Positions 10,223-34,248 of a DNA stretch of 36,650 bases are shown one piece after another. The notes below the pieces were generated by a model. The model had not been told where the DNA came from and ran no database searches. It saw only the letters and a list, made by a program, of their open reading frames with translations. The stretch is from Elusimicrobiota bacterium (GTDB lineage Bacteria > Elusimicrobiota > Elusimicrobia > UBA1565 > UBA9628). Every line of letters begins with the position of its first letter. Within the stretch, counting starts at the first letter, position 1. The position numbers and the translations under genes were made by a program. Location of the stretch: the NCBI GenBank assembly GCA_016218575.1, contig JACRDN010000003.1, positions 1 to 36,650 on the forward strand. The letters are read 5' to 3'.

Positions 10223-10546
10223 TCAGGATCTGTGGGCGTCGACTTGCAGTTCGCCGTCCTCATTGCTGACACGCAAAACAATGGGACGGCAGCAGACCTG
10301 GCAGTCCTCGTAGAGGCTTTGTCCATCTTCCTCGGACGTCAAGCGGACCTCAAAATCCTCGGAGCAGTAGGGGCAGGCCACTTGGAGCCATTGCTCGGTG
10401 CGCACGGCGCTGGGGGCCGCCGAAACCTCGTTGAAAACCGATTGAAGCTCCTCGTCTCGAGGGCCTGGCATGCGGCCTCGCGGACTGGCGCCCTCTGATT
10501 TTCTTCTGACCGTCGTCTTCCTGGTGGTCTTGGTTCTCACAAGCAC
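10223..10546 (-). CDS. CPXCG-motif cysteine-rich zinc protein (107 aa)
   Basis: The C-terminal half matches the short Cys_rich_CPXG family (PF14255): CPYCSEDFEV followed by EDCQVCCRPI and a beta strand (ELQVDAH). CPYC and CQVC would bind one zinc ion. The cellular role of the family is not established. The N-terminus is a basic, low-complexity extension. I favour the GTG at 10546 because AGGAG lies 7 nt upstream. An ATG at 10471, with a weaker GAGG site, would give the more usual family length of about 80 aa. Confidence 0.8.
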   Translation of the reverse strand: MLVRTKTTRKTTVRRKSEGASPRGRMPGPRDEELQSVFNEVSAAPSAVRTEQWLQVACPYCSEDFEVRLTSEEDGQSLYEDCQVCCRPIVLRVSNEDGELQVDAHRS

Positions 10547-10587
10547 AGAATAACTCCTGGCTAATTTTTGCGCAAGACCCAAGTGGT

Positions 10588-10689: not shown

Positions 10690-13350
10690 TCAAGCCCCCT
10701 TGCTGACTTTCTCCAGAGTGAGCCACCGATTGGTGCCGGCGAACTTCTGGTGCATGCGGGTGCGCGGCTCGCCGTCGGGAGACTGGACCTCGGCCAGCTG
10801 GAGGTCGGCCAAGGCCTCGAGGCCCTTCCTACGGAACTCCTTGAGGGAGGACTCCAAGGCCATCCCCACGGTCCGGAAGGCGAGCAGCGTGGAGAACTGG
10901 AGGGTGTAGCCAAGCTGGCCCAACTGCTTGTTCGACAAGAGCTTGCCCTCCTTCTTGGCCTTGCCCCAATGCAGAGAGGGAGAGAGGTTGAAGCCCAGAA
11001 TCTGCTCGGGAAAATACTTATGCACTCCCTCGGAAAACCTTGCGGGCCCCTCAAGATCGGTGTCGTTGAACTCCGGCCAAATCACGTCAACGCCCAGGGA
11101 GGCCGCCTCGAGCGCGCGGTCCACCGCGTGGTCCACCCCCCCCTCCCTCCCGCCCGGAACGGCCCCGTCCACCGCGTCGGTGCGGGCGATCACGACGAGG
11201 TTGACCCCCGCGGCCTGAGCCGCCGCCTTGACCGCGATGAGCTTCTCGATCCACTTATGGGTCGGCACCAAGACCTTGGACCTCTTGACCCCATGGTGGG
11301 CGATGATGTGCCCGCAGGTCCTCTCGGCCGGATCCTGGTCCTCCAGGTGCACTCCACCCACGCCGGCCCTGATGAGCTCGCGGGCCAAAGTGAAGGTCTG
11401 GGTCGGCCCGCCGAAGCCGGCCTCTATGTCGGCGAATATCGGAGGAACGTTCAAGACTTCTCCTCCATTGTCGTAGAAATGTCGGTCGCGGGTGCCCTCG
11501 ATGCCGCGCAAAAGCTCCCGGGCCAGCTCCACCATGGAATGGGAGGGGTAGATCCCGATGTCGGGATACATGCTGTGGGCCACGGCGAGCTGCCAGCCGC
11601 TCGCGTAAATCGCCTCGAAGCCGAGGTCGGTCAAAAGCGAGGCTGTCATGGCGTCGTAGGCCCCGGCCGTGTGCAGGAAGGACTTCTCCGGCTGGGTCCG
11701 GCGCAGGGCGAATTTCTCCTTGAGAAGGCTCCTCAGCTTGTCGGCGGGGTGGATCTGCTCCAGAGGCGCGTACATCTTTAAGAATTCGGCGACGGGGTAG
11801 CTCCAGGCCTTGACCCCCTCGGGCAGCGCGGGGTTGATGGTTTCTTTGATCATGGTTAGGCTCCAATGGCTTGCGCGTCTATATTTCTCCGCCGTCCCGG
11901 GATCCGGGCTCTCCAGCTCCTGCAAGATCTTGGCGAGCTCCCCCTCGAACCACTCGGCCACCAGCCCCTCGGTGACTGCCGTCCCCTCGACGGTCTTGAC
12001 CCCATGTCGGATGCGCTGGGCGACCATGAGGCGGTAGATCCGGTCCGTGGCCAGGTCCTCCATGAAGTTACCGATGAGGCGCCCCTCTCGGTCGTAGCCC
12101 TTGATCATCCGGGCCCCGAGCCCTGAAAGCACGCCGAAGCGATACTCGATCATGGTGCGGATGGCGTCCTTGGTCCCGGACGCCGTGACCGCCCCCGCTC
12201 CCGCCGGGCTGGGGGCCAGATCCGGACGGCGCGGGGCCTCGGGATGGGTCACGGAAAGCTGGTTCGGGGCCGGAAACTGGGAAATCGCGCTTTCGTGCTG
12301 GTCCGGGTGCCCGGTCCAGGCCCCATCGAAGCCCAGGGCCGCCTCGTTCTTCTTGTCGGCGCGCAGCCGCTCCTCGGCCCGGCGATTGATCTCAGGGTTC
12401 TGGCGGTCCGGGAAAAGCGCCGTCATCCCTCCTATGGCCAGGGCCCCGCGCCGGTGGCATGCGTCCACCAGTCGCACGCGGATATTCTGGAAGAAGGGGA
12501 TGTCGTGGGGGATCGTGTTGCGGTCCGGAAGGATCCAGGCAGGGTCGGCCAGCTTGAATTGGAGGAGGCTCGCCATGTAATCCCAGCGCCCCAGGTTGAG
12601 CCCAATGACGTGCCGCCGCGCGGCGTAAAGGATCTCCTCCACCTGATAGGCGGCGGGCAGGGACTCGATCAGGAACATGATCTTGGTCGTCCCCTCCGGC
12701 ACAGAGATCTCTGCCTCCATGGCGGCCAACACGTCGCTGTACCAGGCCGCCTCCTCGAAGGACTCGACCTTGGGGATGTAAAAGCAGAGCTTGGCCTGCA
12801 GCTCCGGCTTTTTCGCGGCGGCCCGGCGCTCCTCGGCGGTCGCGAAAAACACCGAGGCCAAGTCGAAAAGCGAGGCGCTGGCGCGCTCGCCCCCCAATGC
12901 GTTGGCCTCGTCCAAGTGCAGGCCGCGAGGGCGGTAATACATGACCTGGGAGCTGGGCCTGGCGCGCGCGGTCTTCCCCGTCGCCGGATCGGAGTAGGAC
13001 AGCGTTGCCTTGATGGCCGCTATAGTGTTCTCTTGCGCGGCCCTGACGTGAGCCCAATCCGTGGTGATGGAGTCCTCTCCGTCGGGCATGCAGCCCGGGT
13101 CAGGGGAATTGCGCATGGCTACGAGAATCTTGGCGTTGTCGGCCGGGCCCGTGATTTGGTTGCGCTGGTCCTTGGCCCAGCCCGGCAAAGCGAGGCGCCA
13201 AGATCCGGTCGTGGCGGGAGAGTCCGGCAGATAGCCGGGCAAACGGTCCTCGTGGGCCGCGAACAGGGCCTTTCTCCTCGAATCGAGAAGCTCCTGGCGC
13301 CGGGCCTCGAAGGCCTTGTGCAAAGGCGGAAAAAAATCAAGCGCGCTCAT
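10690..13350 (-). CDS. Bifunctional malate synthase-isocitrate lyase fusion (886 aa)
   Basis: Both glyoxylate-shunt enzymes are on one chain. Residues 1 to about 525 are malate synthase A-like: the RPRGLHL motif carrying the catalytic Arg, Glu229 in FLIESLPA, GLNLGRWDY, and catalytic Asp432 in FMEDLAT. Residues from about 530 are isocitrate lyase: GWQLAVAHSMYPD, GGVHLEDQ, VVIARTDA, SPSLHW, and the catalytic Cys679 in TCGH. The usual KKCGH loop reads E-R-T-C-G-H, so the Lys pair is missing. The lyase part, about 360 residues, is shorter than the E. coli enzyme (434). Isocitrate plus acetyl-CoA would give succinate and malate, with glyoxylate passed between domains. The known nematode fusion has the opposite domain order. 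The gene is divergent from aconitase. Its Shine-Dalgarno site is weak (AAGG). Confidence 0.92.
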   Translation of the reverse strand: MSALDFFPPLHKAFEARRQELLDSRRKALFAAHEDRLPGYLPDSPATTGSWRLALPGWAKDQRNQITGPADNAKILVAMRNSPDPGCMPDGEDSITTDWAHVRAAQENTIAAIKATLSYSDPATGKTARARPSSQVMYYRPRGLHLDEANALGGERASASLFDLASVFFATAEERRAAAKKPELQAKLCFYIPKVESFEEAAWYSDVLAAMEAEISVPEGTTKIMFLIESLPAAYQVEEILYAARRHVIGLNLGRWDYMASLLQFKLADPAWILPDRNTIPHDIPFFQNIRVRLVDACHRRGALAIGGMTALFPDRQNPEINRRAEERLRADKKNEAALGFDGAWTGHPDQHESAISQFPAPNQLSVTHPEAPRRPDLAPSPAGAGAVTASGTKDAIRTMIEYRFGVLSGLGARMIKGYDREGRLIGNFMEDLATDRIYRLMVAQRIRHGVKTVEGTAVTEGLVAEWFEGELAKILQELESPDPGTAEKYRRASHWSLTMIKETINPALPEGVKAWSYPVAEFLKMYAPLEQIHPADKLRSLLKEKFALRRTQPEKSFLHTAGAYDAMTASLLTDLGFEAIYASGWQLAVAHSMYPDIGIYPSHSMVELARELLRGIEGTRDRHFYDNGGEVLNVPPIFADIEAGFGGPTQTFTLARELIRAGVGGVHLEDQDPAERTCGHIIAHHGVKRSKVLVPTHKWIEKLIAVKAAAQAAGVNLVVIARTDAVDGAVPGGREGGVDHAVDRALEAASLGVDVIWPEFNDTDLEGPARFSEGVHKYFPEQILGFNLSPSLHWGKAKKEGKLLSNKQLGQLGYTLQFSTLLAFRTVGMALESSLKEFRRKGLEALADLQLAEVQSPDGEPRTRMHQKFAGTNRWLTLEKVSKGA

Positions 13351-13396
13351 TAGCCTTGAATTCTATGTAAGTCCGGTGGCAGACTGCAACTTTTGC

Positions 13397-13402
13397 TAAA
13401 AT
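13397..13402 (+). promoter_or_regulatory. Candidate -10 box of aconitase gene
   Basis: TAAAAT lies 6 nt before the acnA ATG in the 58-bp gap between two divergent glyoxylate/TCA genes. No good -35 box is visible, which could mean activator dependence. Confidence 0.45.
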
Positions 13403-13408
13403 GGAAAT

Positions 13409-16150
13409 ATGAATCCCAGATCCATTGACAGCTTCCAGACTCGGACCTCGCTCAAGGTCGGCTCAAGGGAGTACCGAATTTTCAGCCTGGCGGCCCTGGA
13501 GAAAAAGGGCTTGAACCTCTCGCGCCTTCCCATCTCGCTGCGCATTTTCGTGGAAAACCTCCTGCGCCACGAGGACGGCGTCACGGTCAGCAAGGACGAC
13601 ATCGCGGCCGTGGCCCGGGCCGCGGGCAAGGAACCCGAGGAGCGCGAGGTCTTCTTCATGCCCGCCCGGGTGCTCATGCAGGACTTCACCGGAGTCCCGG
13701 CGGTGGTGGACCTGGCGGCCATGCGCCAGGCCATGAAAAGAATGGGAGGCTCTCCGGATCGGATCAACCCCCTCCAGCCCGTGGACCTCGTGATCGACCA
13801 TTCCGTGCAGGTGGATTCCTTCGGCACGCCAGGCGCCTTCGCCGAGAATTCTGCCATCGAATTTAAGCGCAACAAGGAACGCTACGCCTTCCTTAAGTGG
13901 GGCCAGAAGGCCTTCCGAAATTTCCGCGCCGTTCCTCCCGAGACGGGCATCGTGCATCAAGTCAACCTCGAGTACCTGGCCAAGGTGGTCTGGCGCTCCG
14001 CCCAGGACCAAGAGGTCTGGGCCTACCCCGACACCGTCATCGGAACCGACTCGCACACCACCATGATCAACGGGCTCGGGGTTCTGGGCTGGGGGGTAGG
14101 AGGCATCGAGGCCGAGGCGGCGATGCTGGGACAAGCCATGCCCATGCTCATACCGGAGGTGGTCGGCTTCAAGCTCAGCGGAAAGCTGAGGGAGGGAGCC
14201 ACCGCCACCGACGCGGTCCTGACCGTGACGGAAATGCTCCGCCGCAAGGGCGTGGTGGGAAAGTTCGTCGAATTCTACGGCCCGGGGCTCTCCTCCCTGG
14301 CCTTGGCCGACCGCGCGACCTTGGCCAACATGGCCCCGGAGTACGGGGCCACGGTCGGATTTTTCCCGGTGGACGAACGCACCCTCGAGTACCTGATTCT
14401 CACCGCCAGGCCCGCGGAAGAGGTCGAACTCGTGGAGAAATACTGCCGGGCCCAGGGGCTCTTTCGCGATGACAAGCTCGAGCCGCTCTTCCATGACGGG
14501 CTAGAGCTGGACCTGGGCAAAGTCGAGGCCTGCTTGGCCGGGCCCAAGCGGCCCCAAGACCGCTTGACGCTGGGCGCGGTCAAATCCTCCTGGGAGAAAA
14601 ACCTGCCCGCTTACCTCAAGGAGAAGGACAAGAAGGGGCGCCTCCCCGCACCAGCCGGAACCGAGGTCGAGGTCAAGGCCGACGGCAAAGCCTTCAAGAT
14701 CGGACACGGCGCGGTGGTGATCGCGGCCATCACCTCCTGCACCAACACCTCCAACCCCTCGGTGATGCTGGGAGCCGGGCTTTTGGCCAAGAAAGCCGTC
14801 GAGAAGGGCTTGCGCGCCAAGCCCTGGGTCAAGACCAGCCTCGCCCCTGGATCGAAGACCGTCATGGACTACCTGGAGGCCTCCGGGCTCAAGGCGCCCC
14901 TGGAGCGTCTCAATTTCCATTTGGTCGGCTACGGCTGCACCACTTGCATCGGAAACTCGGGGCCCTTGCCGGAGGCCGTGGCCGAGGCGATCTCGAACCA
15001 GAACCTGATCGCGGCCGCGGTGCTCTCCGGCAACAGGAATTTCGAGGGCCGCATCAATCCCCTGGTAAAGGCCAACTACCTGGCGTCCCCCCCGCTGGTC
15101 GTGGCCTACGCCTTGGTCGGGCGCATGGATATTGACCTCTCCAAAGAGCCCCTGGGGGCTGGAAAGGACGGAGCCCCCGTCTACCTAAAGGACATCTGGC
15201 CCTCCAACGAGGAGGTCGCCCGGACCGTCGCGGCCTGCGTCAAGAAAGAGATGTTCGCCCGGCAGTACAGCGATGTTTTCGCCGGGGACTCCGATTGGAG
15301 CTCTCTCGAGGTGGCCCAGAGCTCCCTCTACGAGTGGGACTTGGGCTCCACTTACGTGCGCCTGCCTCCCTACTTCGAGAGCTTGAAGCTCTCGCCAGAA
15401 CCACTGGCCAACATCCGGGGGGCCCGCGCCCTGGCGATTTTCGGGGATTCAGTCACCACCGACCACATTTCCCCCGCGGGAAACATCCCCAAGGATGGCC
15501 CCGCCGGCCTCTACCTCCAGACAAAAGGCGTCAACCCCAAGGACTTCAATTCCTTCGGGGCGCGCCGCGGCAACCACGAGGTCATGGTGCGCGGGACTTT
15601 CGCCAACATCCGGATCCGAAATCTCATGATCGAAGGGGCCGGCGGCTACGCCCTGCACCTGCCTAAGAAGAAGCTCATGCCCATCTTCGAGGCCTCGGAG
15701 CTCTACCGCCGAACCGGAACTCCCTTGGTCATCCTGGCCGGCAAGGAGTACGGCTCTGGCTCCTCGCGCGACTGGGCCGCCAAGGGGCCGGCTCTCCTGG
15801 GGGTCAAGGCCGTGATCGCCCAAAGCTTCGAGCGCATCCACCGCTCCAATCTCGTCGGAATGGGGATACTCCCCCTGCAGTTCAAGGCCGGGGAGAGCGC
15901 TCAAAGCCTGGGGCTGACCGGCCTAGAGGTCTTCGAGATTTCCGGGCTGGCCGCGGGCCTTAAGCCCCGCCAGGAAATCTCGGTCAAGGCCGTCGGCGAA
16001 GCGGGACAAGTCGCCGCGTTCAAGACCCTGGCCCGCATTGATACCGCGATCGAGCTCGAGTACTACCGCTACGGGGGCGTGCTGCGCTATGTCCTCTGCC
16101 GGATGCTCAATCAAAAGGAACCGGCCCTAAGCGGCTCAGACGGAAAATAA
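13409..16150 (+). CDS. acnA: Aconitate hydratase A (913 aa)
   Basis: This is full-length AcnA/IRP-type aconitase, which isomerises citrate and isocitrate in the cytosol. The [4Fe-4S] ligands are Cys444 (SCTNTSNPS) and Cys510 and Cys513 (GYGCTTCIGNSGPL). Other hallmarks are IGTDSHTTMINGLGVLGWG and the swivel-domain motif GKEYGSGSSRDWAAKGP. The length is close to E. coli AcnA (891 aa). The isocitrate it makes is the substrate of the divergently encoded fusion enzyme. The start has no Shine-Dalgarno site but a TAAAAT box 6 nt upstream. The 3' end overlaps the convergent protease gene by 44 bp. Confidence 0.97.
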   Translation: MNPRSIDSFQTRTSLKVGSREYRIFSLAALEKKGLNLSRLPISLRIFVENLLRHEDGVTVSKDDIAAVARAAGKEPEEREVFFMPARVLMQDFTGVPAVVDLAAMRQAMKRMGGSPDRINPLQPVDLVIDHSVQVDSFGTPGAFAENSAIEFKRNKERYAFLKWGQKAFRNFRAVPPETGIVHQVNLEYLAKVVWRSAQDQEVWAYPDTVIGTDSHTTMINGLGVLGWGVGGIEAEAAMLGQAMPMLIPEVVGFKLSGKLREGATATDAVLTVTEMLRRKGVVGKFVEFYGPGLSSLALADRATLANMAPEYGATVGFFPVDERTLEYLILTARPAEEVELVEKYCRAQGLFRDDKLEPLFHDGLELDLGKVEACLAGPKRPQDRLTLGAVKSSWEKNLPAYLKEKDKKGRLPAPAGTEVEVKADGKAFKIGHGAVVIAAITSCTNTSNPSVMLGAGLLAKKAVEKGLRAKPWVKTSLAPGSKTVMDYLEASGLKAPLERLNFHLVGYGCTTCIGNSGPLPEAVAEAISNQNLIAAAVLSGNRNFEGRINPLVKANYLASPPLVVAYALVGRMDIDLSKEPLGAGKDGAPVYLKDIWPSNEEVARTVAACVKKEMFARQYSDVFAGDSDWSSLEVAQSSLYEWDLGSTYVRLPPYFESLKLSPEPLANIRGARALAIFGDSVTTDHISPAGNIPKDGPAGLYLQTKGVNPKDFNSFGARRGNHEVMVRGTFANIRIRNLMIEGAGGYALHLPKKKLMPIFEASELYRRTGTPLVILAGKEYGSGSSRDWAAKGPALLGVKAVIAQSFERIHRSNLVGMGILPLQFKAGESAQSLGLTGLEVFEISGLAAGLKPRQEISVKAVGEAGQVAAFKTLARIDTAIELEYYRYGGVLRYVLCRMLNQKEPALSGSDGK

Positions 16151-20625: not shown

Positions 20626-22884
20626 ATGCGTGGCTTCGTGCTGGCCCTCGCCTGTCTCCTCTTGGCCTCCTCCCCGGCGGCCGCGGCCGCCCGGAGCGAC
20701 GGGCCGCCGGCCCATATACTGAGGCAAGCCTACGATTCCATAAAGGAAGACCCTCCGTTTCCGGGGCAGCAGCCCCTCCTCCAGGCCATGGAAGCTCTCC
20801 TGCGCAAAACCCGCGACGCATCCGCCGAACGAAGGCAGGCCGTGGTTCGGGAAGGCCTCGACGAGATCAACGCCGCGGCCTCGAGCCTCGAGCTCTTCTC
20901 GGCGCCGCCGGCCGCCAGGCGCAAGGCCTGCGCGAGGCTTGCCTGGCTCAACAACAGCGCGGGACATTGGGAACAGGCCCTGCGCCTTTCCGATCTCATC
21001 CTGCTGGATCAGCCCCAGGATCCCGACGCTCTCTTGAGCCGCGCCACCGCCCGCTTCGGCCTCAAGGATTACCAAGGCTCCCTCGCCGACGCCGAGGCCG
21101 CCCTGCGGGCCGATCCAGGCAATCCCCTGGCGCACCGGGCCAAGGCCATGGCCGCCTACGGCTTGGGAAACGAGGACGTCGCCTTGGCGCAAGCCAAAAT
21201 GGCATTGGCCCTCGACCCAGACGACGCCACCGCCTCGGCCCTGGCCAAGCTCTCCGAAAACAAGGTGCGCGCTGTGAGCCTCGAACTCTACCGATCCGAT
21301 CTTCCCGCGCAAATCCGGAGGCAGTACCACAACACTTCCGAGCAGATAAGCCAAGTCGAGGAGAATATCCGCTACCCCAGCGGCATCCCCGGGCCTCCTT
21401 CAGCGGCGCGACTTCTGCAAAAGGCGGCGGACAAGATCGCCCTCAAGGACTATCCGGGAGCCGTCGAGGAGGCCGCCCGCGCCCTGGCATCGGATCCCGG
21501 CAGCTTCCTCGGCCATTACTATAGGGCCGCGGCCTACAACCTCCTGGGAGAATACGAGAAGGCCGTCCAGGACGCCACCAGGGCCCTGGTCTTAAGACCG
21601 AGCGACACCGCGGCCCGCGACGCCAGGGCCTGGGCCTTCAACCGGCTGGGGCGCCCCAACGACGCCATCGCGGACTCCTTCCACTCGCTAGAGATCAATC
21701 CCAAAAATCCCTACGCTTTCGCCAACCTGGGGGCTTCCCACGAGCTCCAGGGGGACCTCACCTCCATGCTGAGCGAGCTCAAGGAGGCCGCCCTCTTGAG
21801 CCCCCTTTTTGAGGCCGCTTACCGCGACGCGGCGGCCCGCCACGGGCTCGAGCCGGAGCCCCTGCCTTCCAGCCACTATCAAGGGGCCTCCCCCATCTGG
21901 GCTCAAAGGAAGCAGGCGCGGCGCAATGCCTTCCTGGCCTTGGCCTTGAGCGCGGCCCTTGGGGGGTCCTTGATCGCCTTGGGATTGCTGCGCCCCGGAA
22001 AGCCGCCCCGGCGATCCCACCGGGACGGCGGAGGCGACGGCTTGGCTGAAATCCCCACGGCGGCCAGCGTCCGCGAAAAATACGAGATCGGGAAAACCAT
22101 CGGCATGGGCGGCATGGGCGTCATCTTCGAGGGCTTCGACCGCTCCCTGCAAAGGAAGGTCGCCATCAAGATGATCCGCGAGGAGCTCAAGGTCGAGGCC
22201 GAGGCCAGGGCGCGCCTCCTCGAGGAAGCGCGGACCGTGGCCTGCCTTCATCATCCCCACATCATAGACATTTACTCCATCATCGAGGACGACACCGGCC
22301 TGTACCTGGTCTTCGAGCTGGTCGACGGCGAGCCCTTGGACCACCTCCTGCGCGAAAAGAAACGGCTGTCTCTGGCCGAGAGCAAGCGCCTGCTCAGGCA
22401 GGTCTGCGAGGCCCTCGACTTCGCGCACGAGCGCCAGATCATCCACCGGGATCTAAAGCCCTCCAATATCATGGTGACTCCAGAGGGCGTGGCCAAGATC
22501 ATGGACTTCGGGATCTCCTGCCACGGCATCGGGCGTCAGGACCTGAGCCTGCGCGAGACCGCGGCCGGAACCCCGGAATACATGTCCCCCGAGCAGAGCT
22601 ACGGCCGGGTCCTGCCAGAGTCGGACATCTTCTCTTTGGGGGTCTGCCTATACGAAATGCTCACCGGCCTGAGGCCTTACCCCGGCTCGGCCGGCGCCGC
22701 GATCAAGGCCTCTCGGGACTACCACAAAGCCTCCCAGATCGCGCCCAACATCCCGGCCGCGGCCGATGAGCTCATTGCCTGGGCCCTGCACCCGAATCCC
22801 GACAAGAGGATCCACACGGCGGGACGGTTTTGGAAGCTCCTCGAGGCCATCGAGGAGCCGGCCTTGCCGACTTTAGGCCGATAA
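20626..22884 (+). CDS. Extracytoplasmic TPR receptor with C-terminal Ser/Thr protein kinase (752 aa)
   Basis: A signal sequence (residues 1-21) is followed by TPR-type helical repeats (about 90-205 and 255-410), one membrane span (about 435-455, AFLALALSAALGGSLIALGLL region) and a Hanks-type kinase domain (about 485-745). Kinase motifs are intact: GMGGMG loop, Lys515 in VAIKMI, Glu in the C helix, HRDLKPSN with Asp609, DFG at 627-629, GTPEYMSPEQ. The predicted layout is TPR outside and kinase inside, so it could sense a periplasmic protein or peptide and phosphorylate cytosolic targets. This is the reverse of PknB-type kinases, where the kinase is N-terminal. The promoter is 7 nt from the ATG. 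The 3' end overlaps the EVE gene by 12 bp. Confidence 0.93.
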   Translation: MRGFVLALACLLLASSPAAAAARSDGPPAHILRQAYDSIKEDPPFPGQQPLLQAMEALLRKTRDASAERRQAVVREGLDEINAAASSLELFSAPPAARRKACARLAWLNNSAGHWEQALRLSDLILLDQPQDPDALLSRATARFGLKDYQGSLADAEAALRADPGNPLAHRAKAMAAYGLGNEDVALAQAKMALALDPDDATASALAKLSENKVRAVSLELYRSDLPAQIRRQYHNTSEQISQVEENIRYPSGIPGPPSAARLLQKAADKIALKDYPGAVEEAARALASDPGSFLGHYYRAAAYNLLGEYEKAVQDATRALVLRPSDTAARDARAWAFNRLGRPNDAIADSFHSLEINPKNPYAFANLGASHELQGDLTSMLSELKEAALLSPLFEAAYRDAAARHGLEPEPLPSSHYQGASPIWAQRKQARRNAFLALALSAALGGSLIALGLLRPGKPPRRSHRDGGGDGLAEIPTAASVREKYEIGKTIGMGGMGVIFEGFDRSLQRKVAIKMIREELKVEAEARARLLEEARTVACLHHPHIIDIYSIIEDDTGLYLVFELVDGEPLDHLLREKKRLSLAESKRLLRQVCEALDFAHERQIIHRDLKPSNIMVTPEGVAKIMDFGISCHGIGRQDLSLRETAAGTPEYMSPEQSYGRVLPESDIFSLGVCLYEMLTGLRPYPGSAGAAIKASRDYHKASQIAPNIPAAADELIAWALHPNPDKRIHTAGRFWKLLEAIEEPALPTLGR

Positions 22885-32346: not shown

Positions 32347-34248
32347 TCAAGGAATGGACCTCGCGAGGCGAAACCCAACGCCGCCAACGCGGGGGCCCGG
32401 GTCGTCGCCGTAGCGATAGGCGGAGCGGAGGCAGACGGCCCAGTTGACCCAGGAGCCGCCCCGCATGACCCGGCACGAGCCCGCGTTCGGCCCGAAGGGA
32501 TCGACGACAAACCCCGTCGGATAATCCTTCTCGTACCAATCCCCCATCCATTCCCAAACGAGACCGTTCATGTCGAAAAAGCCCATTGGATTGGGCAAAA
32601 GCAGCCCCACAGCGTGGGTGCGGTCTTGAGCGTTCTTATCGTACCAGCCGTACTTGACCAGCTCGTTGTTGTCGTTGTAGCCGAACCAATAGGGCCAATC
32701 AGGAGCGCCCACGCCAGCTCTGGCCGCGCGCTCCCACTCGGCCTCCGTGGGCGCGCGCCAGCCTTCGCAGTCGTAAGGGCTGGCTGCCGTCAGCCTGCCC
32801 GTGATGTTGCCTTGGCCGTCTTCCTCGTAGCAGGGCTTGAGCCCGTCCGCCCTAGAGGCGCTGTTGGCGGCCTTGGCCATTTCAAACCAGGAGACATTAA
32901 CGGCAGGATGATTGGCGTTCATGTACTTGCCGTCCACAAGCCGCCCGTCTCCGTCGCTATGCCGCTTGTCATTGAAATCCCTCGGCCAATAGCTCGGAAC
33001 CCACAGGCGCATCTGCAAGGCCGTCGCGGGCGCTGCCATCATCACGATGCGATGGGAGAGCTCGACATCGTGATAGACCTCGTCGTTTCGATCCCGCGCA
33101 TAATCAAGCGTGCCCATGCCGAACCGTCCCGCCGGGATTTCGATGAGGCGGCCGGCTACGCCGACAATGGACTCGTTCAAAGCGTCCTTGGCCGTGAGGC
33201 CGTCGAGCGTGGGCCGGCTGGGGGGGCGGCTTGTCGGCGCCGCTGTCTTCAGCGTCCAAATCCCAGTCCTATTCCCCACGGCAACCAGGCCGCTCAAGAA
33301 ACCGCCGGCGGCGCCACCGGACGGCAAGCCCAGCGAATCCAAGAGGGCCTTCTTGAATACCGCCATGCTCGCATAACGCGCGGCGGGATCGGAAGATAGG
33401 GCCTTCATGAGCGCATCGCTGAAGGTCTCCGGAATGCTGCTGTCGACTTGATGCGGCGGCGCGTACGTCCAAAGCTGCGACTGCTGCGGATTGATCCCAG
33501 TGACCGCATGGTGGAGCGTGGCGGCCAGGCCGTAGACATCAGAACGGCGATCGCTATTGGCCTTGCGGCCAAACTGCTCGGGAGCGGCGTAGCCTGGCGT
33601 GCCCAGAGCGATCGTGTCGCCGCGGCTCCAGAACCCCCGCTTGCGCACGGCGCCGCCGTCAATGAGCTTGGCGCCGCCGCCATTTGAAAGCATGATGTTG
33701 TCGGGCTTGACGTCGCGAAACACGAAACCGCTGCCATGGACTGCCCGTAGGGCGCCCATGATCGGCTCCAACAGGTTCAGAGCCTGCTGTGGCGAGAGCC
33801 GGCCGACCCTCGCAAGACGATCGGCCAAGCTCTCGCCCTCCACCCATTCGCGCACGAGGTAGAGCTTGCCGTTCTCCTCGAAAGCTTTCCGCGTCTTCGC
33901 GAGGTTGGGGTGGCTAACCGCTCCAAGCAGGGCATGCTCGGCGAAGAACTGGGCCTGCTCCTGGGTTTTCTCGGCGGCCGCAAGATTGGGCTCCAGCGAC
34001 ATCTCCTTGAGCGCCCACGCGCCTTCGGCGTTGGATACTTTATAGATCGTCGTCGCTGTGGCGCCGTTTTCGGCGATCTTGGCATCGACACGGTAGTCGT
34101 TGAGGAGACTTCCCACGCGCAACTGCAGCGGGGCCGCGATCGGGGAAATCGGCGCCGGAGCGGAAAGGCTGCGCGTCTGGGTCGCCTGAACGGCGAAAGT
34201 CGGGACAACCACCACCAATACGAGGGCTGCAACGGCCTGCCGCTCCAT
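32347..34248 (-). CDS. Exported kinase-like protein fused to FGE-sulfatase (SUMF1) domain (633 aa)
   Basis: The N-terminus (AALVLVVVVPTFAVQA) is a signal sequence or anchor. Residues about 50-305 are a protein-kinase fold with Lys81 (WALKEM) and the catalytic Asp179, but HRD reads F-R-D, DFG reads D-G-G (197-199) and the Gly-rich loop is lost. A linker with a possible membrane span (about 308-330) leads to an FGE-sulfatase domain (about 365-633: IEIPAGRFGMGT, NHPAVNVSWFEM, WRAPTEAEWERAARAG, MGFFDMNGLVWEWMGDW, VMRGGSW, GFRLAR). Many such domains are not formylglycine enzymes and work as binding or C-type-lectin-like folds. If exported, the kinase domain has no ATP supply and may be a pseudokinase scaffold. 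It is monocistronic. Confidence 0.9.
   Translation of the reverse strand: MERQAVAALVLVVVVPTFAVQATQTRSLSAPAPISPIAAPLQLRVGSLLNDYRVDAKIAENGATATTIYKVSNAEGAWALKEMSLEPNLAAAEKTQEQAQFFAEHALLGAVSHPNLAKTRKAFEENGKLYLVREWVEGESLADRLARVGRLSPQQALNLLEPIMGALRAVHGSGFVFRDVKPDNIMLSNGGGAKLIDGGAVRKRGFWSRGDTIALGTPGYAAPEQFGRKANSDRRSDVYGLAATLHHAVTGINPQQSQLWTYAPPHQVDSSIPETFSDALMKALSSDPAARYASMAVFKKALLDSLGLPSGGAAGGFLSGLVAVGNRTGIWTLKTAAPTSRPPSRPTLDGLTAKDALNESIVGVAGRLIEIPAGRFGMGTLDYARDRNDEVYHDVELSHRIVMMAAPATALQMRLWVPSYWPRDFNDKRHSDGDGRLVDGKYMNANHPAVNVSWFEMAKAANSASRADGLKPCYEEDGQGNITGRLTAASPYDCEGWRAPTEAEWERAARAGVGAPDWPYWFGYNDNNELVKYGWYDKNAQDRTHAVGLLLPNPMGFFDMNGLVWEWMGDWYEKDYPTGFVVDPFGPNAGSCRVMRGGSWVNWAVCLRSAYRYGDDPGPRVGGVGFRLARSIP

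Follow-up and report, generated by a model that had tools for sequence, protein, structure and literature searches.

The glyoxylate shunt allows sugars to be made from two-carbon food, and one of its enzymes, isocitrate lyase, is under study as a tuberculosis drug target, in which a K-K-C-G-H loop is taken as the signature. In the Mycobacterium tuberculosis lyase, the active site is closed jointly by this signature loop and the C-terminal tail of the partner (PMC8099091). Isocitrate lyase and malate synthase are joined in a single polypeptide in several described organisms. The fusion of the nematode Caenorhabditis elegans begins with isocitrate lyase (PMC1630690), while malate synthase comes first in Euglena, according to Nakazawa 2005 as cited in PMC1630690 and PMC8219788, and also in Acanthamoeba, three chrysophytes, and a kinetoplastid (PMC8219788). 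For bacteria, an ICL/MS fusion was reported from Anaeromyxobacter (PMC1630690), and a table of fusions with unstable metabolites, glyoxylate among them, includes a bacterial isocitrate lyase/malate synthase fusion, fig|404589.10.peg.3099 (PMC4921024).

The DNA analyzed here, "the window," is a stretch of 36,650 nucleotides from an Elusimicrobiota bacterium (GenBank assembly GCA_016218575.1, contig JACRDN010000003.1) that contains a gene in which malate synthase is followed by isocitrate lyase. An earlier note on this DNA had set that order against the nematode one and concluded that the fusion was independent. The order is indeed unlike that of the nematode fusion, but newness cannot be drawn from it: because malate-synthase-first proteins have been published from Euglena, Acanthamoeba, and chrysophytes, and a bacterial fusion has been reported from Anaeromyxobacter, the order alone is not new.

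One reading frame encodes both shunt enzymes

The fusion gene and its divergent neighbor are laid out as follows.

10690..13350, minus strand: fused malate synthase-isocitrate lyase gene (single ORF, Pfam/NCBIfam domains, one-frame orthologues in seven other species)
11854..13350, minus strand: malate synthase A-type region, residues 1-499 (TIGR01344, PDB match 3cux, Foldseek)
11767..11835, minus strand: inter-domain linker, residues 506-528 (pLDDT, length variation, Acidobacteriota junction)
10693..11736, minus strand: isocitrate lyase region, residues 539-886 (PF00463, PRK15063, PDB isocitrate lyases)
13351..13408, no strand: divergent spacer of 58 bases from the fusion gene to the aconitase gene (ORF coordinates, sequence reading)
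13409..16150, plus strand: aconitate hydratase AcnA, 913 aa, the divergent neighbor making isocitrate (TIGR01341)

As the earlier note had claimed, the ORF reading of the window and the domain profiles agree on one continuous frame of 886 aa, with an ATG start and no internal stops, and the Pfam and NCBIfam profile search places malate synthase at the N terminus and isocitrate lyase at the C terminus (lyase matches at residues ∼554 to 885). An AlphaFold2 model built from a shallow alignment (mean pLDDT 69, pTM 0.48) was applied to the fold and the linker, not to loop geometry, and Foldseek searches with it returned the same two domain assignments, with 3cv2/3cuz as the best matches of the malate synthase part. 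The linker residues have a pLDDT below 50 in this model, the linker differs in length among species in the orthologue alignment, and it falls at the point where the first gene of an Acidobacteriota pair ends in a stop and the second opens with its own ATG. The AcnA neighbor scores 1355 bits against TIGR01341 (cut-off 945), and an aconitase gene adjoins the fusion also at loci L004, L006, and L007.

Downstream of the fusion gene, and like it on the minus strand, the window encodes a small protein (10223-10582) that carries a cysteine-rich CPXCG zinc-ribbon domain (PF14255). Another gene encodes a protein with TPR-like repeats and then a Ser/Thr kinase domain (20626-22884, plus strand). A third (32347-34248, minus strand) has an N-terminal Ser/Thr protein kinase part and a C-terminal stretch matching the PvdO, EgtB, and GldK models, which suggests a formylglycine-generating-enzyme-like domain.

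The malate synthase domain keeps its catalytic residues

Two features carry the catalytic set of this domain.

12274..12942, minus strand: TIM-barrel core (PF01274), with R140, E229, and D257 corresponding to E. coli R166, E250, and D278
12055..12057, minus strand: D432 in an MED motif, corresponding to D447 of E. coli malate synthase A (alignment with E. coli AceB)

The domain is 34% identical to E. coli AceB and alike in its catalytic residues, with all four of the E. coli set (R166, E250, D278, and D447) retained and a 10-residue insertion preceding the MED motif in the alignment. PF01274 matches with 189 bits (Pfam cut-off 26.4) and TIGR01344 with 319.7 bits over residues 2 to 499, below its equivalog cut-off of 594.5; the best PDB match is 3cux (E value of 3e-72).

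The lyase domain has an altered loop and a shortened tail

The lyase domain departs from the canonical enzyme at two features in particular.

11275..11334, minus strand: altered active-site loop, D673-K692 (DPAERTCGHIIAHHGVKRSK), with C679 corresponding to E. coli C195 (alignment with E. coli AceA)
10693..10752, minus strand: shortened C-terminal tail, residues 867-886, replacing the longer canonical lid tail (alignment)

PF00463 matches the fusion with 142.6 bits (Pfam cut-off 26), and the lyase region matches isocitrate lyases in the PDB with E values down to 2.8e-51, whereas PRK15063 (199.8 bits) and TIGR01346 (178.2 bits) fall below their cut-offs of 562 (equivalog) and 275.9. Since both TIGR01344 and PRK15063 score under their equivalog cut-offs, both domains of the fusion are divergent. 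The E. coli AceA is 30% identical to the lyase domain and differs from it in having the KKCGH loop, no insert, and a longer C-terminal tail. The domain is short, as had been claimed, because, relative to the canonical enzyme, it lacks an internal segment of ∼30 residues and ∼16 residues at the C terminus.

The fusion loop, D-P-A-E-R-T-C-G-H, aligns without gaps to A-S-V-K-K-C-G-H of E. coli, so that the signature K-K-C-G-H is absent and R-T-C-G-H stands in its place through K193R, which retains the positive charge, and K194T, at a position where all canonical lyases aligned have K or R. A 7-residue insert follows C-G-H-I, and the next G-G-K of AceA becomes R-x-K. The earlier description of a loop that keeps its Cys and loses its Lys pair is thus borne out, with the insert in addition. 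Outside K193/K194, all 20 active-site positions compared are identical to E. coli AceA (S91, G92, W93, D108, D157, E159, H184, E186, Q188, C195, G196, H197, R232, W287, E289, N317, S319, S321, F349, and T351); together with the malate synthase set, this agrees with the note's view that the remaining lyase motifs and the malate synthase catalytic residues are intact.

R-T-C-G-H is invariant in 15 of the 15 R-T-C-G-H rows of our tree set, and in all members that we found, fused and unfused, in two phyla. Its invariance across fused and unfused members indicates a subfamily trait and not decay, and its presence in both phyla indicates that it predates the fusion and is under selection. Read against the M. 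tuberculosis lyase, the longer loop and the ∼16-residue-shorter tail probably amount to a rebuilt lid over the lyase active site.

Distribution and conservation in Elusimicrobiota

A search for the same domain order, which the earlier note had proposed, found seven further Elusimicrobiota species, giving an intact one-frame fusion in eight species including the source among 341 genomes of the phylum (G000, G192, G196, G206, G207, G208, G212, and G227; duplicate handles for one genome, such as L002 for G208 and L009 for G204, were counted once). The seven other proteins are 76 to 79% identical to that of the window. Close relatives of the whole fusion came from Elusimicrobiota assemblies in all cases, and no plasmid record matched at more than 60% identity. 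A comparison of four closely related species gave dN of 0.08 to 0.10 against dS of 0.36 to 0.56 in the malate synthase domain (dN/dS ∼0.15 to 0.22) and 0.01 to 0.05 against 0.24 to 0.32 in the lyase domain (∼0.05 to 0.15), values that indicate maintenance of both domains by purifying selection.

Damaged copies occur in three genomes: by tblastn, the G204 copy has two frame changes, one near the junction (around residues 510 to 520) and one at 636/637; the G205 copy has one; and the G210 copy has an in-frame loss of approximately residues 115 to 454. The frame changes in G204 and G205 may be real or assembly errors. At L052 (G226:C28, 3280-3486), a remnant with only the last 69 residues occupies the same divergent position beside aconitase. 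Three candidates were set aside: G204 as a split gene pair, where tblastn shows the broken fusion instead; G188 and G186 as further fusions, where both enzymes share a frame but a stop lies between them; and a one-piece Aeromonas caviae match, which consists of two ORFs that share a frame.

The fusion and a canonical K-K-C-G-H pair occur together in 0 of the 341 genomes of the phylum, a small-number comparison, as would be expected if both do the same job. Unfused R-T-C-G-H lyases without a malate synthase are present in G204, G185, and G181. In G185 and G181 such a lyase, with no fused or adjacent malate synthase, is found alongside an ordinary lyase, and those copies may therefore have a different role.

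Two further observations concern related genes. Locus L044 (G210:C81, ∼1338-2500) encodes a 386-aa paralogue of the R-T-C-G-H-type lyase that lacks the E-D-Q and C-G-H loop altogether and is a probable pseudoenzyme or decaying copy; its neighbor is a polysaccharide-deacetylase-like gene, an arrangement also seen in G204 and G185. L039/L055 (G182) and L046 (G181) hold a third kind of malate synthase/isocitrate lyase neighbor pair, with the loop KPGVKKCGHQGGK, that is very divergent from both other types.

Origin of the fusion

Two Acidobacteriota genomes, G480 and G435, encode a malate synthase (66 to 70% identity) and an R-T-C-G-H lyase (73 to 76%) as two adjoining genes. These belong to the same lineages of both enzymes as the fusion but are separate: a stop ends the first gene, the second has its own ATG, and in G480 these lie ∼22 bases apart. 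In a search of 199 Acidobacteriota genomes, no other isocitrate lyase matches were found in G480 and G435, and the fused form occurs in 0 of the 41 genomes of the class holding the pair. In the malate synthase tree, the pair and the fusion are joined with 98/97 support inside an Acidobacteriota-type lineage (100/100), and the fused sequences form one clade (99/95). The lyase tree, a quick tree with very long branches between subfamilies, agrees in joining the pair and the fusion within an R-T-C-G-H clade (SH-aLRT 99). It also places two unfused R-T-C-G-H lyases among the fused sequences, and these may thus be copies that lost their malate synthase part.

Given that the Acidobacteriota pair consists of adjoining separate genes, an aceB-aceA operon is the most likely source of the fusion. 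The simplest story that the sequences suggest is an operon, transferred or shared, that was fused once in Elusimicrobiota, where the operon stop, the spacer, and the lyase start would have been lost a single time in one family. From the unfused Acidobacteriota operon and the single fused clade, we infer that this event was probably independent of the eukaryotic and Anaeromyxobacter fusions. The genes as a set offer a clean before-and-after of gene fusion, the two genes being neighbors in Acidobacteriota and fused in Elusimicrobiota.

Function of the fused enzyme

We consider it likely, on sequence grounds, that the protein is a bifunctional glyoxylate-shunt enzyme derived from an aceB-aceA operon of distinct lineage, and it is from sequence that we infer both of its activities. 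AcnA encoded next door would supply isocitrate, the C-terminal domain would cleave it to succinate and glyoxylate with the usual Mg2+/Cys machinery, and the N-terminal domain would combine glyoxylate with acetyl-CoA to give malate. The odd loop would be a property of the lyase subfamily and not of the fusion, probably acting with the shortened tail as the re-built lid. Hand-over of glyoxylate between the domains could occur by proximity, and channelling is plausible. A broader reading, which we offer tentatively and regard as possible though doubtful, is that the R-T-C-G-H proteins form a working subfamily of isocitrate lyases with a rebuilt two-part lid (longer loop, no K194, shorter tail), which in the fusion would lie beside the tethered malate synthase and permit direct hand-over of the reactive glyoxylate.

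The fusion is the sole malate synthase and the sole isocitrate lyase found in the 97%-complete genome. Separate complete aceA and aceB genes, raised in the earlier note as the case against its reading, were looked for there and none were found; neither the protein search nor the two family profiles returned a second copy of either enzyme. The genome has one isocitrate-dehydrogenase-family gene and one citrate synthase gene, the latter beside a gene that by eye resembles succinyl-CoA ligase beta; it has no match to PF03972 (PrpD).

These data bear on the suggestion in the earlier note of a methylisocitrate-like substrate. Taken further, that reading would have the changed loop act as a specificity switch, the lyase domain prefer 2-methylisocitrate or another 2-hydroxyacid related to it, and the fused malate synthase use the matching keto acid. 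K194T and the 7-residue insert do fall in the signature loop, and unfused copies do coexist with an ordinary isocitrate lyase in G185 and G181, but W93, N317, S319, S321, F349, and T351 are as in AceA where E. coli PrpB has G, G, T, L, L, and P, and the PrpB signature K-R-C-G-H is absent, R-T-C-G-H being found instead. An F/T pair is reported to be an isocitrate/methylisocitrate determinant in the fungus Aspergillus (PMC11982470), and by our own reading the retained F349/T351 appear to correspond to it. The single citrate synthase and an aconitase of the AcnA and not the AcnD type point the same way, and the lack of PrpD together with the aconitase next door leaves the methylisocitrate reading unsupported while supporting an ordinary glyoxylate shunt. 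We therefore judge another substrate to be unlikely.

A reading in which malate synthase is the working part and the lyase domain a weak or inactive leftover, retained for a structural or regulatory role, is very unlikely. Loss is evident in the loopless G210 paralogue, the 69 residues left in G226, and the broken or deleted copies of G204, G205, and G210, but the catalytic loop is invariant among the intact fusions, and their lyase dN/dS lies below that of malate synthase. Scarcely credible is an assembly or frameshift artefact joining naturally separate genes, a missed frameshift or stop having been raised in the earlier note: G204 and G205 copies contain frame breaks, but the same uninterrupted frame and conserved junction in eight species from different assemblies, seven besides the source, largely refute it.

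Shunt enzymes within giant proteins of other Elusimicrobiota

Giant proteins are common in Elusimicrobiota (PMC11573180), and another family of the phylum encodes both shunt enzymes within giant single frames of 6139 and 6934 aa that are ∼80% identical over most of their length.

G007:C16:232568-250987, minus strand: giant frame L056/L114/L115
G008:C33:31053-51857, plus strand: giant frame L057/L116

Partial giant frames are present at L058 (G010) and L059 (G011). The proteins have a hydrophobic signal-like N terminus followed by an amino-acid (Glu/Leu/Phe/Trp) dehydrogenase, a class 1 fructose-bisphosphatase, malate synthase, and isocitrate lyase, in that order. Both shunt-enzyme domains retain their catalytic residues, and the lyase scores above the TIGR01346 cut-off (321.7 bits). 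In the part of the literature covered, no account of central metabolic enzymes within Elusimicrobiota giant proteins came to light.

Comparison with known systems

Our partial coverage of the literature returned no published description of an R-T-C-G-H lyase subfamily or of a bacterial malate-synthase-first fusion, and nothing linking Elusimicrobiota with glyoxylate and isocitrate lyase. What is new, as far as this coverage goes, is a bacterial malate-synthase-first fusion built on the R-T-C-G-H lyase subfamily. A conserved subfamily that seemingly works with a shorter tail and without the Lys pair would reveal the parts of the lid that an isocitrate lyase can do without. Because fused and unfused proteins both exist in nature, glyoxylate channelling is open to direct test.

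The E. coli genes aceB and aceA have the gene order seen in the fusion but are separate. The Anaeromyxobacter fusion is bacterial and combines the same two activities, compared here by description; the strain of fig|404589.10.peg.3099 is presumably Anaeromyxobacter. Of the two lyase copies in that genus, one is described as belonging to the eukaryotic type, with an inserted domain. The nematode fusion likewise holds both shunt enzymes in one chain, in the opposite domain order. The Euglena-type fusion, a eukaryotic protein compared by description, resembles the Elusimicrobiota one in being a single polypeptide with malate synthase followed by isocitrate lyase.
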